The notes below the pieces were generated by a model. That model did not search any database. It was given only the letters and a program-made list of their open reading frames with translations, and was not told the origin of the DNA. A DNA stretch of 64,000 nucleotides from Patescibacteria group bacterium (lineage in GTDB: Bacteria; Patescibacteriota; Patescibacteriia; Patescibacteriales; Patescibacteriaceae): assembly GCA_030583705.1 (NCBI GenBank), contig CP129471.1, positions 548,506-612,505 on the forward strand, in the 5' to 3' direction. The translations under genes and the position numbers were made by a program. How positions within the stretch are numbered: the stretch's first letter is position 1; each line of letters begins with the position of its first letter. Below, in pieces: positions 42,736 to 49,514 of this stretch.

Positions 42736-43329
42736 TTAGGTGGTCGCGTCAACTCGCTTAACTGACTCAAATTCCTTTTCAAGCCTACGGTTAAAAACAT
42801 CGTTCTGATCATGAATAATGTTAACTAAATCACCTACACGTTCACGCATAAAACCACCCGCTAATCCGGTTAACTCACCAACTTCTTCAGAGAGCTTGTC
42901 AAATCGGCGATCCATTTCTTGTCTAACTTGAACAAACCCGTCTTTCATTTCTTGTCTAATCTCAAAAATATCCTGTTTCGTCTCTTGTCTTAATTCAGCT
43001 ATAGCTCGCTCGTTGCGATCAAAACGCTTATAAACTTCCGCACGAAAATCACTCATTTCAGCACGAAAAGCAACGAATGATTTCGCCATATCAACCACCA
43101 TAGCGGTTAAAGAAGAGACTGAGTCTTCAAGAGATGAAACAGAAGCCCTAAGAGAAGAAACCGAAGTTTCAAGAGATGAAACAGAAGTTTCAAGGGAAGA
43201 AACAGAAGTTTCAAGGGAAGAAACAGAAATTTCAAGAGAAGAAACAGAAGTTTCAAGGGAAGAAACAGAAGTTTCAAGGGAAGAAACAGAAGTTTCAAGG
43301 GTGGAGAGACTTACTGATGGTATACTCAT
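42736..43329 (-). CDS. Coiled-coil protein with a 7-residue tandem repeat
   Basis: 197 residues. The first 85 residues are about ten copies of a heptad-like repeat (S-L-E-T-S-V-S), encoded by near-identical 21-bp units; the rest is a long heptad coiled coil (FRAEMSDFRAEVYKRFDRNERAIAELRQE, cut: FRAEVYKRFDRNERAI) with a hydrophobic stripe, similar to bacterial coiled-coil fibre or DUF1640-type proteins. No signal peptide. Likely an oligomeric rod. The repeats may vary by slippage. Confidence 0.6.
   Translation of the reverse strand: MSIPSVSLSTLETSVSSLETSVSSLETSVSSLEISVSSLETSVSSLETSVSSLETSVSSLRASVSSLEDSVSSLTAMVVDMAKSFVAFRAEMSDFRAEVYKRFDRNERAIAELRQETKQDIFEIRQEMKDGFVQVRQEMDRRFDKLSEEVGELTGLAGGFMRERVGDLVNIIHDQNDVFNRRLEKEFESVKRVDATT
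43141..43308. repeat. 21-bp tandem repeats inside the coiled-coil gene
   Basis: About eight units of GTTTCAAGGGAAGAAACAGA with minor changes (plus-strand orientation). Each encodes seven residues, so gain or loss of units keeps the frame. Confidence 0.8.
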
Positions 43330-44245: not shown

Positions 44246-44485
44246 TTATTCAATGGTAGTGGTTAAACCATTAGGTTCAATAGGGATATCAAGATCTTCG
44301 TCATCTTCATCCTCCCCTGTTTCCGCACCTTCAATAGTAGTGGTTAGTCCACTGGGTTCAATCGGGATATCGTTTATAGAGTTTTCATCTTCATTATCTG
44401 CCCTAACTATTGTAACGCCTAAAAGCATTACCAGAGATAAAACAACAGCCAAAGAGGCTTTAACTAAAGAAAAATAGCCTTTCAT
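44246..44485 (-). CDS. Short secreted peptide with internal duplication
   Basis: 79 residues with a signal peptide (LVKASLAVVLSLVMLLGVTIVRA). The mature part contains DIPIEPSGLTTTIE and, after an acidic spacer, DIPIEPNGLTTTIE, a direct duplication. No known family. No terminator follows, and the STAS-like gene is 31 bp upstream on the same strand, so they may be co-transcribed. Confidence 0.55.
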   Translation of the reverse strand: MKGYFSLVKASLAVVLSLVMLLGVTIVRADNEDENSINDIPIEPSGLTTTIEGAETGEDEDDEDLDIPIEPNGLTTTIE

Positions 44486-45295: not shown

Positions 45296-47629
45296 CTAGT
45301 TAATAGCCTCGAAAGGAGTGGCAGCTTTGTTGCCTAGGTTAAAGGTGTATGAATTGATGGTCGGAGCAACTCCTCCACCAATAGCACCGTTTGTAACTTC
45401 GTCAACAGTCCACTCAATGTTTTGAAGCAAAGCGCGAACCTGTTTAGCCTGGGTCTGGTTAGTTCCTATTACAGTAATAGTAAACGTACCAGTCTGACCA
45501 GCAGCAATTCTAAACAAAGCCTCACCGTCATAAACAGCACCAGTGTAACCACCGGCACCAGTTACGGCTTCAACCTCTGAACCACTTGAGGTAGTGATAG
45601 TACCTGATTGGCTAGCCAATTCAGCACCTGCTGAATATTCAATAAGGTAGATAACGTCAACATCACCAGCGGCAGCTCCAGCAGCTAATACGATATCAGC
45701 AGGAGCACGGTTAATGTAAACATCTCTATCACCAAAGGCTTCAACATCAACCTTCCAGGTAAACTGGGCAATATCATTGAAGTTACCATCAACATTAGTT
45801 ATGGTAGTAGTAGCTTCGTTAACAGTTACCATAATACCTCTTGAGCGAAGTTCATGGGTCTGAGAAGTAGCTGAAACAGATTTGATAATATCATCCTCGT
45901 CATGACCATTAGCGTCAGTTCCCTTAAAGTTAGCTGCATTAACAACTACATTTAAGTTAGTGCCTTCCACATAACGAACACCTTCATTTGTGTCAAACAA
46001 GTCAACTTTAACAGTGAAAGTCTTAGTTTGGTTGGCAGCTAAGGCGATGTTCATGTTGTTAAACAAGGTAACACCTCCATTAGGAACGGTCTTAACACTT
46101 CTTTCAGTAGAACCTTCATATAGGTAAGCTCTGCGGATAACACTGTTTTCAGCAGTAGTACCAGCAGGATCACCAGTAGTAAAGGTTACCTGAAGATCAT
46201 TAACGGTCATAGCAACACCGTTCTTTTCCTTCATGGTGAAGGTGTAAACAGAAACTCCGTTAGTGTCTGAAGTTTCGCTTACTTCAACGATAGCAGCATC
46301 AATCTGAGGGTTGGCAGTTCTAACTTCCAAAGAAGCTTTCTTAATACCACCAACAGTGAACTGTTCTTCAAGAGCAGTTGCATTAGCAGCTAAGGCTGGA
46401 GCTGATTGGTTCATAGTCAAACCAGATTCATCAAGAATTCTGATGTCTCCAAGTTCAAGATTCCAAACAGCGGTCTTGTCATTTGAGTCAATGTTATTAT
46501 GCATTGAAACAGCAACAGAAACCTTAGTGGTTGCATTAGAAGCCAAGACAGAGCTTAGGCCACTGAAACGCATACGGTATTCAACAGTAGCGTTTGAACC
46601 AGCATTACCAATGTTAGTACCGGCAGCAAAAGAGCTGGACCAGTTAGCACTTGAATCAGCATTCATAGTACCAACAACAGCTCCATTAACCATCAAAGAT
46701 ACATTCTTGAAATAATTCCAAGGACGTACTGAGTGAGTTCCTGGGTTGCTTACAGAAAACCAAACATCGGCAGTCTGCAACATCAAAGGACCATCATTGC
46801 TCAATTCAACATCAGTAGCGTAGATTTCTACATTGCTTTGTGCTTCAAGAGCTTCGGTCTTATTACGTGAACCTAGGGAAATATTATCAATAGTACCTTG
46901 GGTTCCTCCGTTTTGATTAAATCCTGGGTCAACTTGACCAGGGGCAGCTTGCGCAGTGTTAGTTATATCAGCTTCTGCACCGGTAATATCAGAACCCATT
47001 GGGCTCATAGAGAATCCGGAAGGAGCGGTTACAACATGGTCAAAGCTGAAGCGGTTGGCATAAAATGCATTTTCGCCAGCAACTTTGCGGAATTGTGAAC
47101 CAGTGTAGTAGTAAACATCTGGGCTACCGGCTGCCTTTACTAACTGACCACCAGTGTACTGGCCGTTAGGCTTTTGTCCACCCATGGTGTAGTTGTTAAA
47201 GAAGCTGTCAGCAACGTCAACTACCATGCCAGCCCAGTTAGGACCGTACATGCTAATAGCTTCCTGCTCGCTGGAGATGTGGTAGATCGTTCTGTCCATA
47301 CCTACAGCATAAGTCTTAGGATCACTGGTGATCTTCATCAACTTAGTTCCAGGGCGGATAGTAACGTTGGAAGTCAAAGTGTAGTTTGACATTTCAGCCT
47401 GTGAAACTACTTGCACATTATTAAAGTCACGGTACCACGTAAAGTATACACTTGAGTGTGGGAAAGCGTGACGGTTGCTGCCGTTTACATAGTAAACAGC
47501 TGAATCGGTTGACAGTTTGATCAAGTCACCTGTTGAGGCGGCTTTGGCTGATGGAGCGGCCATACCGCTCATAGTTACAACCATCATGACTGCCATGACG
47601 AAAGCAAAAGTTTTTCTTACAATATTCAT
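45296..47629 (-). CDS. S-layer-like abundant secreted protein
   Basis: 777 residues from ATG 47629 (MNIVRKTFAFVMAVMMVV), signal peptide to about 30 (AAPSAKAAS). Residues about 35-190 form a domain with repeated 'AVYYVNGSNRHAFPH', 'TYAVGMDRTIYHI' and 'DVYYYTGSQFRKV' strands. Several beta-sandwich (Ig-like) domains rich in Thr, Ser, Ala and Asn follow. Codon choice is more GC-rich than neighbours and there is a strong terminator, as for highly expressed genes. This layout is typical of putative S-layer proteins of Patescibacteria. Upstream lies a long structured leader and an ECF sigma factor. Confidence 0.75.
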   Translation of the reverse strand: MNIVRKTFAFVMAVMMVVTMSGMAAPSAKAASTGDLIKLSTDSAVYYVNGSNRHAFPHSSVYFTWYRDFNNVQVVSQAEMSNYTLTSNVTIRPGTKLMKITSDPKTYAVGMDRTIYHISSEQEAISMYGPNWAGMVVDVADSFFNNYTMGGQKPNGQYTGGQLVKAAGSPDVYYYTGSQFRKVAGENAFYANRFSFDHVVTAPSGFSMSPMGSDITGAEADITNTAQAAPGQVDPGFNQNGGTQGTIDNISLGSRNKTEALEAQSNVEIYATDVELSNDGPLMLQTADVWFSVSNPGTHSVRPWNYFKNVSLMVNGAVVGTMNADSSANWSSSFAAGTNIGNAGSNATVEYRMRFSGLSSVLASNATTKVSVAVSMHNNIDSNDKTAVWNLELGDIRILDESGLTMNQSAPALAANATALEEQFTVGGIKKASLEVRTANPQIDAAIVEVSETSDTNGVSVYTFTMKEKNGVAMTVNDLQVTFTTGDPAGTTAENSVIRRAYLYEGSTERSVKTVPNGGVTLFNNMNIALAANQTKTFTVKVDLFDTNEGVRYVEGTNLNVVVNAANFKGTDANGHDEDDIIKSVSATSQTHELRSRGIMVTVNEATTTITNVDGNFNDIAQFTWKVDVEAFGDRDVYINRAPADIVLAAGAAAGDVDVIYLIEYSAGAELASQSGTITTSSGSEVEAVTGAGGYTGAVYDGEALFRIAAGQTGTFTITVIGTNQTQAKQVRALLQNIEWTVDEVTNGAIGGGVAPTINSYTFNLGNKAATPFEAIN

Positions 47630-48066
47630 ACAATAAATCATTTAAAAGTTTATTTGGTTCAACGTTATCACATCAATCGGAATCCCGCTTCCCCGCATCA
47701 ATGAAAATAAATTCATTAGAGCCGGAGAGTAAACATGCATGGGACATTCACACTCCGTAATCAACAAGAGTTTTATTCTCATTGATACGGAGAAAAGCTT
47801 AATTGATGTAAGCTCGTCATGTTTATGTAAATAAACAAATTAACCGCATAAACCTTTGGGGTTTATAAGTTGATTCGTTAAACGAATCAAGCACGGCTAC
47901 TCATTAAATTAATGAGCATCGACCTTTGAAGGCCGCACTGCCGAAACTTTTAACCGAAGTTAAAGAGTCGGTCTTTCTCCTTGGTACAAGTACCGCGGAT
48001 ATCGGAAATCATTTTGGCGTGGAGGGCGAACAATTAAGTCCGCCGCCAAAACGAGTTTCCGATACC
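47630..48066 (-). ncRNA. Long structured leader or ncRNA ahead of the S-layer-like gene
   Basis: A 437-nt segment without ORF made of at least nine successive stems. Clearest are TATCGGAAA/TTTCCGATA with TTTTGGCG/CGCCAAAA inside and a nested arm; GGTAC/GTACC; CTTTAAC-UUCG-GTTAAA(A)G with a UUCG tetraloop; CTCATTAA/TAATGAG; TTGATTCGTT/AACGAATCAA; ATAAACC/GGTTTAT; GTTTAT/ATAAAC; AGCTTA/TAAGCT; and CTCCGTA/TACGGAG. No Rfam class is recognised by eye. It is either the S-layer mRNA leader (stability or translation control) or a separate RNA. Confidence 0.7.
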
Positions 48067-48070
48067 AGCA

Positions 48071-48889
48071 CTACTGCCCGCTGCTTTGGATTTTAATGTT
48101 TTTTAATTTTTCAATAGCTTCCGCATACTGAGCACTGTCAAAAAGATTCTCAATCTCATCTAAAGCTGCCTTAACCGAAGCATCTACGGTAGCTGCGGCG
48201 GCAATTTCACTGGCAATTATAACATCACCATCGCCTTGCTCCGCTTTCTCCCCTTCTAATGTCTTTGCTTCCTCACTACCAACCGCTGTCGCTGTACCGG
48301 TTACAGATAATTCTTGATTTTTATTAATTCCAGGCTTAAGACCACCAACCGCTTCTTGCTTGGCTTCTTTTTCTTCCAACTTAACTAATCTTTCTCTAGC
48401 AGAAGACAATTCTTGTTTAAAACTGCGAGAAAGGTTTTCCATTCTCGGATCTTGAGTAGCGCCTTCTATAACTTCTCCATTTTTTTCTTCTCTATTCATT
48501 AACTCAATCATTTCAATAGCTCTTCTTTCTGCAAAGTTAATAGATAGCTTAGCTTTTTCTCTTTCAGATAAAGTAGCAGCCAACCTAGCTCTCTCGCCAG
48601 CTGTCTTAGCCATATATAGAGGATCACCGGGTGTACTGTTTTTAGAGAAAGTTATTGCCGAACCAGCCAACGCAAAAAAAGCGACGATCATCATAGCGAC
48701 CGGCACCGGTTGACTTAAACGGCTAAACAACAAAGAGAAGCGAGCTCCCATGCCCAACTTAACCGCCTCAAAAGCTTCACCATTGGAAATCTGGCAGCTT
48801 AAAAGCTCACGATTTTTATCCACCCAAGACTTCTCCGGCTTAGTGGCCGATAGAGAAGAAAGAGCTTTGGTAAAATCTTTATCTAACAT
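48071..48889 (-). CDS. DUF5667-domain membrane protein (possible anti-sigma factor)
   Basis: 272 residues. One membrane segment (VAMMIVAFFALAGSAITF, about 65-83) follows a short cytoplasmic region; the extracytoplasmic part opens STPGDPLYMAKTAGERARLAATLSEREKAKL, cut here as TPGDPLYMAKTAGERARLA, the DUF5667 signature. Downstream of the ECF sigma gene (52-bp gap), the position of an anti-sigma factor. Long helical and Glu/Lys-rich tail. Confidence 0.75.
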   Translation of the reverse strand: MLDKDFTKALSSLSATKPEKSWVDKNRELLSCQISNGEAFEAVKLGMGARFSLLFSRLSQPVPVAMMIVAFFALAGSAITFSKNSTPGDPLYMAKTAGERARLAATLSEREKAKLSINFAERRAIEMIELMNREEKNGEVIEGATQDPRMENLSRSFKQELSSARERLVKLEEKEAKQEAVGGLKPGINKNQELSVTGTATAVGSEEAKTLEGEKAEQGDGDVIIASEIAAAATVDASVKAALDEIENLFDSAQYAEAIEKLKNIKIQSSGQ

Positions 48890-48941: not shown

Positions 48942-49514
48942 TTAACTTTTAACCAGTTTACGAAGAGCCTCTAAAGATCTGTGTACTAGGACTCTTACAT
49001 TACCGGATGTCTTATCTAGAATATTCGCTATCTCGGCAATAGATAATTCGTTAATAAATCGCATAATGACAATTTCCCGATACTCGTCTTTAAGTTGAGG
49101 GAGAGTCTCTTCTACTAATTGTCTAAAGTCTACCCCGTCCTGAAGTTTTAATCTTGGATCAACTACGACCTGGCTCGGTAAGTTCTCTTCATTCTCAACC
49201 ATAGCTTCTAAAGAGACAGACTCTTGTTTGGAAGTCTTACGGTAGTGATCTATTACAGTGTTACGAGCTATCTTATAAAGTAGAGGCTTAAGGGTGTCCT
49301 GGTCATCATCTAAGTTACCTTCATAGACATAGTTCCAAGCTTTTAGAAAGACCAAAGAAGTTAAATCCTCGGCCGTCTCCCTACCCCGCACTTTATAATA
49401 GACAAAGCGATATATCTGGTCAATGTACAAGTTGTAGGCTTCAATAAAAGCCTGTTTGTCTTTATACTTTCGTAGTCTGGTAAACAGGGCTTCCTCGCCA
49501 CCGAATATGGTCAT
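48942..49514 (-). CDS. ECF-type RNA polymerase sigma factor
   Basis: 190 residues. Region 2 (YIDQIYRFVYYKVRGRETAEDLTSLVFLKAW, cut: YKVRGRETAEDLTSLVFLKA) and region 4 (LPQLKDEYREIVIMRFINELSIAEIANIL, cut: YREIVIMRFINELSIAEIA) are intact. It directs polymerase to its own regulon, likely envelope genes. Followed by the DUF5667 gene and the S-layer-like gene on the same strand. Confidence 0.92.
   Translation of the reverse strand: MTIFGGEEALFTRLRKYKDKQAFIEAYNLYIDQIYRFVYYKVRGRETAEDLTSLVFLKAWNYVYEGNLDDDQDTLKPLLYKIARNTVIDHYRKTSKQESVSLEAMVENEENLPSQVVVDPRLKLQDGVDFRQLVEETLPQLKDEYREIVIMRFINELSIAEIANILDKTSGNVRVLVHRSLEALRKLVKS

Follow-up and report, generated by a model that had tools for sequence, protein, structure and literature searches.

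What kind of element occupies the long gap in front of the S-layer-like gene at this locus, and does it act on that gene? The window, meaning the whole 64,000-nucleotide stretch analysed, comes from a tiny uncultured bacterium with a genome of 870 kb on a single contig. In cells that have an S-layer, its proteins rank among the most abundant. The literature searched contains neither a control mechanism for an S-layer gene in the Candidate Phyla Radiation nor a description of an RNA of the kind reported here in these bacteria.

Gene order at the S-layer-like locus

The genes and the gap between them are arranged as follows.

45296-47629, minus strand: S-layer-like gene, encoding a secreted surface protein of 777 codons before the stop
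47630-48070, minus strand: whole leader or intercistronic RNA, from the DUF5667 gene to the S-layer-like gene
48071-48889, minus strand: DUF5667 gene, the neighbour on the upstream side (Pfam PF18915, 36.3 bits)
48942-49514, minus strand: gene for an ECF-type sigma factor, same order in the operon

The start codon of the S-layer-like gene is most probably the ATG at 47629, as relatives begin at the same MN.VRK. The gap is therefore 441 nt long; the first-pass annotation had recognized a real region but gave it 437 nt (47630-48066). The S-layer-like protein matches no Pfam family or NCBIfam domain at threshold and has no relative in the PDB. Its label is putative and rests on its size, a signal-peptide-like start, and the reading of the first-pass annotation, rather than on a curated S-layer domain. 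At ~777 residues it is shorter than most full-length relatives (~1130-1300), and it may be C-terminally shortened or a member of a shorter type. Two other proteins are encoded nearby on the minus strand. The one at 42736-43329 carries about nine tandem SSLETSV heptapeptide repeats, perhaps forming a coiled coil, and the other (44246-44485) is small and secreted-looking, with the segment DIPIEPxGLTTTIE present twice.

The upstream DNA of S-layer-like genes was compared across the order to which the genome belongs, Candidatus Falkowbacteria. The N-terminal alignment of the protein matches 89 of 111 genomes of this order, in about 20 families. The gene is also found in other orders of the class, with 119 of 192 genomes positive in an even draw that included nine of the own order. 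In nearly all orthologs, the equivalent of the leader is a gap of ~300-900 nt that follows a gene on the same strand. Immediately upstream lies a DUF5667-like gene in 55 of 71 loci and, in a further 14, a methyltransferase that is itself preceded by DUF5667, giving 69 loci with a same-strand operon partner directly upstream. In the 14 loci where the SAM-dependent methyltransferase lies between DUF5667 and the leader (e.g., L025 1885-2646, L026 2250-3062, L027, and L028), the leader keeps company with the S-layer gene and not with DUF5667.

Fold and conserved modules of the leader

The minus strand of the leader folds at -156 kcal/mol, compared with a shuffled mean of -101 (z -11.2, reached by 0 of 100 shuffles), and the plus strand gives a z of -5.4. 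Under a simpler shuffling scheme, the leader reaches -8.75; none of 31 other stretches of the window goes below -5.4. The structured gap claimed by the first-pass annotation is thus present. The minimum free energy (MFE) structure has 11 hairpin loops, in keeping with the earlier count of at least nine stems, and the UUCG-capped hairpin and large first domain described then both exist. The picture of a row of local stems holds in part: the stems are there, but conserved helices P4, P5, and P6 are long-range. Conserved P2 and P4 are missing from the MFE structure of the own sequence and were revealed by comparison only. The elements of narrow distribution are:

48000-48064, minus strand: domain 1, a long hairpin that begins 6 nt past the DUF5667 stop; two relatives in the genus carry large analogous hairpins, without sequence conservation
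47983-47994, minus strand: small hairpin GGUACUUGUACC, in this genome only
47947-47965, minus strand: UUCG-capped hairpin, in the position held in other families by P1 (CCGC-AUUA-GCGG type); absent from the MFE structure
47870-47890, minus strand: 9-bp palindromic hairpin in the spacer between modules M1 and M2, matched by similar hairpins only in the two relatives from the genus

Repeats of the kind CGCAATGACA are seen just upstream of the conserved RNA in L072, L091, and L106.

The conserved part of the leader is composed of two modules in the fixed order M1-M2-ATG. Module M1 is made up of two helices and a bulge.

47890-47939, minus strand: module M1, with P2 (47932-47939 with 47890-47897), a bulge with AAGGUCGA, and hairpin P3
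47919-47926, minus strand: invariant bulge AAGGUCG(A)
47898-47918, minus strand: hairpin P3, 9 bp, loop AUU

The AAGGUCG bulge is one-sided, as the opposite strand usually has no unpaired base. The motif is found in 66 of 76 ortholog leaders of the order (~1.6 expected from shuffles), and its reverse complement never occurs. All 20 leaders sampled outside the order but within the class carry it as well, 67-225 nt ahead of the start codon, where 0.34 would be expected. In a set of 34 sequences, each of the 13 M1 pairs shows changes in both partners. Covariation in M1 reaches 0.997; shuffles give 0.287, and sliding the partner strand gives no more than 0.248. The absolute values are biased toward structure because the rows were registered by a pairing-seeking parser. 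For the same reason, the chimera test is the more independent control: the native P2 partner pairs better than one from another family in 1627 of 1880 comparisons. Plain MAFFT alignments of M1 were out of register and were left out of the statistics, and alignment A7 was N-padded for helix register.

Module M2 is larger and lies closer to the start codon.

47667-47811, minus strand: module M2, matched by covariance model R1 at 98.7 bits (E 6.6e-21 in the own genome)
47848-47857, minus strand: P4 5' strand, partner of 47644-47653, closing the M2 domain; not in the own MFE structure
47644-47653, minus strand: P4 3' strand, from the test of native against cross-family pairing
47802-47811, minus strand: P5 5' strand, partner of 47668-47677
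47774-47794, minus strand: P6 5' strand "a", 21 bp with "c"
47689-47709, minus strand: P6 3' strand "c", partner of "a"
47753-47765, minus strand: strand "b", a possible competitor for "a"
47727-47753, minus strand: hairpin P8, loop UCCCAUGC
47670-47690, minus strand: conserved box AAGCGGGAUUCCGAUUGAUGU, which contains P7 (47678-47687, GAUU loop) and the greater part of the P5 3' strand

In the M2 consensus, P5 pairs GUAAAUCRRY with RYYGAUUUGC, and P7 is CGG-GAUU-CCG. P6 extends up to ~20 bp, P8 is often present with the loop CCCAUGC, and P4 is the outer closing helix. The box, AGCGGGAUUCCGRYYGAUUU with mismatches allowed, is found in 68 of 79 leaders. Across 52 sequences, 95.4% of M2 pair cells are paired, double changes number 111 compared with 31.6 in shuffles, and 7 of the 10 P5 pairs change on both sides. 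The covariation of M2 is 0.441, falling to 0.147 or less with the partner slid by one to three columns. Cross-family chimeras weaken M2 from -32.9 to -22.8 kcal/mol, and the native combination is better in 1618 of 1740 comparisons. The P4 strands, which mostly flank M2 at comparable distances, pair better with their own partner than with one from another family in 2296 of 2936 comparisons. P2, P3, and P5 covary strongly, while P4 and P6 pair inside one leader and not across families.

Taken together, it is well supported from sequence comparison that the leader is a conserved structured RNA whose pairs are kept by compensatory changes across some 20 families. The first-pass annotation had named a lack of conserved pairs in relatives as grounds for giving up its proposal; the comparison was run, and conserved, covarying pairs were found instead.

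Distribution of the two modules

Searches of the window and 20 relatives against Rfam 15 at the gathering threshold returned nothing except one tRNA elsewhere, and permissive searches of the leader gave chance-level matches only. Membership of a known Rfam family is rejected at both settings. With conserved, covarying pairs and no Rfam 15 match, the undescribed ncRNA class raised by the first-pass annotation stands as an undescribed conserved structured RNA. A purely passive stabilizer, another of its three options, is less likely because AAGGUCG is invariant though unpaired.

M2 is restricted to Ca. Falkowbacteria and is absent from leaders of other orders of the class. Model R1, built on M2, finds at most one sense-strand match per genome. 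Apart from two near-chance hits, the matches all fall inside the order, and about 350 further genomes of the class yield nothing convincing. The E-values of R1 and R2 are rough, and the genomes are mostly metagenome-assembled. An exact scan for the box in all GTDB genomes gave 41 contigs, where those outside Patescibacteria score ~22 bits or less with one exception. This exception is a contig binned as Planctomycetota (isolate Prado159; L196 141-266, minus strand) with an M2 match of 106.7 bits, probably a mis-binned Falkowbacteria contig. Viral contigs do not contain the exact box, and viral carriage is rejected on that ground.

Model R2 is built on M1 and finds the element of the own genome at E 0.0097. 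In a blind search of the class, R2 matches lie just upstream of S-layer genes in G135, G164, G176, G200, and G233, and are otherwise about as many as expected by chance, the model being short and insensitive. Outside the class, the R2 search of the phylum stays at chance level. Spread beyond the class is therefore rejected, given this result and the near-chance R1 matches outside the order.

All sense-strand elements located in the order lie just upstream of an S-layer start, on the same strand. Three sampled S-layer-like paralogs of the order (L105, L133, and L134) have no M1 or M2 leader; AAGGUCG occurs in none of the three and in no antisense position. In the loci examined, the RNA is linked exclusively to the orthologous S-layer gene.

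Function and comparison with known systems

The position and strand of the RNA upstream of one gene are constant, and a terminator-like site between M2 and the ATG is seen in 0 of 68 leaders (0.3 expected). The RNA and the S-layer gene should therefore share a transcript, and the intrinsic terminator of an attenuator is likewise found before the gene in 0 of 68. In L221 and L222, from other orders, the upstream stop codon is ~30-40 nt before M1, which leaves little room for a promoter. Together with the structure that begins 6 nt after the DUF5667 stop in the window, this points to a promoter inside the upstream gene or to an intercistronic RNA.

The reading that fits best, and is probably correct, is a cis-acting leader or intercistronic RNA of an ECF sigma-DUF5667-(methyltransferase)-S-layer operon that sets the translation or stability of the S-layer mRNA. 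The leader would be transcribed as part of this mRNA, and S-layer yield would be set post-transcriptionally, with the downstream segment stabilized and ribosome access gated. The AAGGUCG bulge between two covarying helices would most likely be a protein-binding site, and the bound protein would plausibly give feedback from S-layer supply. M2 may be a later addition in the Falkowbacteria order, forming what looks like a compact tertiary domain, with long-range helices, directly ahead of the ribosome-binding region. For the final gene of a regulator operon, needed in large excess, an element that boosts stability and governs translation would be natural at this site.

A more far-reaching version is tentative. 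It proposes a new large RNA class, with an ancestral M1 and an order-specific M2, that would sense S-layer synthesis or export directly (through the S-layer protein, the DUF5667 protein, or the ribosome), couple the ECF sigma operon to coat assembly, and assemble into an ordered particle of RNA or RNP. It is unlikely that the leader yields an independent large noncoding RNA resembling OLE, ROOL, or GOLLD, one that is transcribed together with the S-layer mRNA or released from it by cleavage and works in trans or as a scaffold. The length of ~350-450 nt, the many covarying helices, and the invariant unpaired bases would suit it, but not the confinement of the order's sense-strand elements to the site before the S-layer start, the missing terminator, or the paralogs without the element. 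Quite unlikely is a passive stabilizer, whose hairpins would protect an abundant S-layer mRNA in its 5' part or mark a product of intercistronic cleavage. This reading draws on the unusually stable S-layer mRNAs of other bacteria (PMC8056022), the intercistronic position before a highly expressed last gene, and lineage-specific extra hairpins such as domain 1. Against it, passive hairpins have no need for an invariant bulged 7-mer or a 21-nt box conserved over some 20 families.

A metabolite riboswitch with M1 or M2 as its aptamer is improbable. In its favour are invariant loop bases between covarying helices and, in certain lineages, strand b as a second partner for strand a. Against it are the single, non-metabolic target gene, the missing terminator, the lack of an Rfam riboswitch match, and the behaviour of the alternative helix, which is not general: pairing goes beyond shuffles for a:b in only 13 of 50 leaders and for a:c in 31. 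Exchange between a:b and a:c, striking in the own family, is rejected as a general claim. Mutually exclusive helices are not generally conserved over the 50 leaders, and a switching fold that would conceal the ribosome site was not demonstrated. A lineage-specific switch, with b competing against c for a, may exist, confined to the own family and a handful of others. Pairing of UUAGYGY with the P1 loop as a pseudoknot reaches p<0.05 in only 12 of 41 cases and is a lead.

A conserved small ORF or leader peptide is very improbable. It would use an SD-like GGAGG and a CCCAUG start in the P8 loop and run toward the box, readable as SGIPVDL. Starts of the CC(C)AUG type do occur in 27 of 68 M2 interiors (7.8 expected), but only 8 of the 27 have an SD-like sequence, and the peptides, of 5-93 residues, share neither sequence, frame, nor stop position. 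The ORF is rejected because its peptides are unconserved, as is the coding reading of the box, where changes follow P5 and P7 pairing with no conserved frame downstream. A chance or DNA-level feature (repeat, mobile element, or composition) can be set aside almost entirely. Dense inverted repeats, and REP-like repeats upstream in some relatives, would favour it, but the element is single-copy in its own genome, its motif is strand-specific, the exact box is missing from viral contigs, and the covariation includes G-U pairs. Covariation and linkage refute it.

The leader most likely controls the amount of coat protein made, judging from conservation and position. Throughout the order it is conserved in front of one gene, its core recurs in other orders of the class, and Rfam has no entry for this large structured family. 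Concrete handles on it are two covariance models, specific invariant bases, and one predicted binding site.

Several known systems resemble the leader in part. Work on 5' stem-loops was reportedly published by Emory in 1992 and is cited in a review (PMC8056022). According to that review, S-layer mRNAs are unusually stable in other bacteria. The leader shares with them an S-layer gene, an mRNA expected to be abundant and long-lived, and structure at the 5' side. It differs in its many conserved helices and invariant unpaired sequence, and is not known to be linked to them in sequence or structure. OLE, ROOL, and GOLLD are likewise hundreds of nucleotides long with an intricate conserved fold. 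Unlike them, the leader has no Rfam match and is probably cis-acting, as it invariably accompanies a single protein-coding gene, without an intervening terminator. Riboswitches and attenuators are also structured 5' leaders in cis, whereas the present leader has no terminator, general alternative helix, or metabolic target. Leaders of the ribosomal-protein type are protein-binding autoregulatory leaders. Like the present leader, they have a short, invariant bulge that is flanked by covarying helices and precedes the regulated gene; here the target is a surface protein, a 150-nt M2 is added, and the binding partner is a predicted one.
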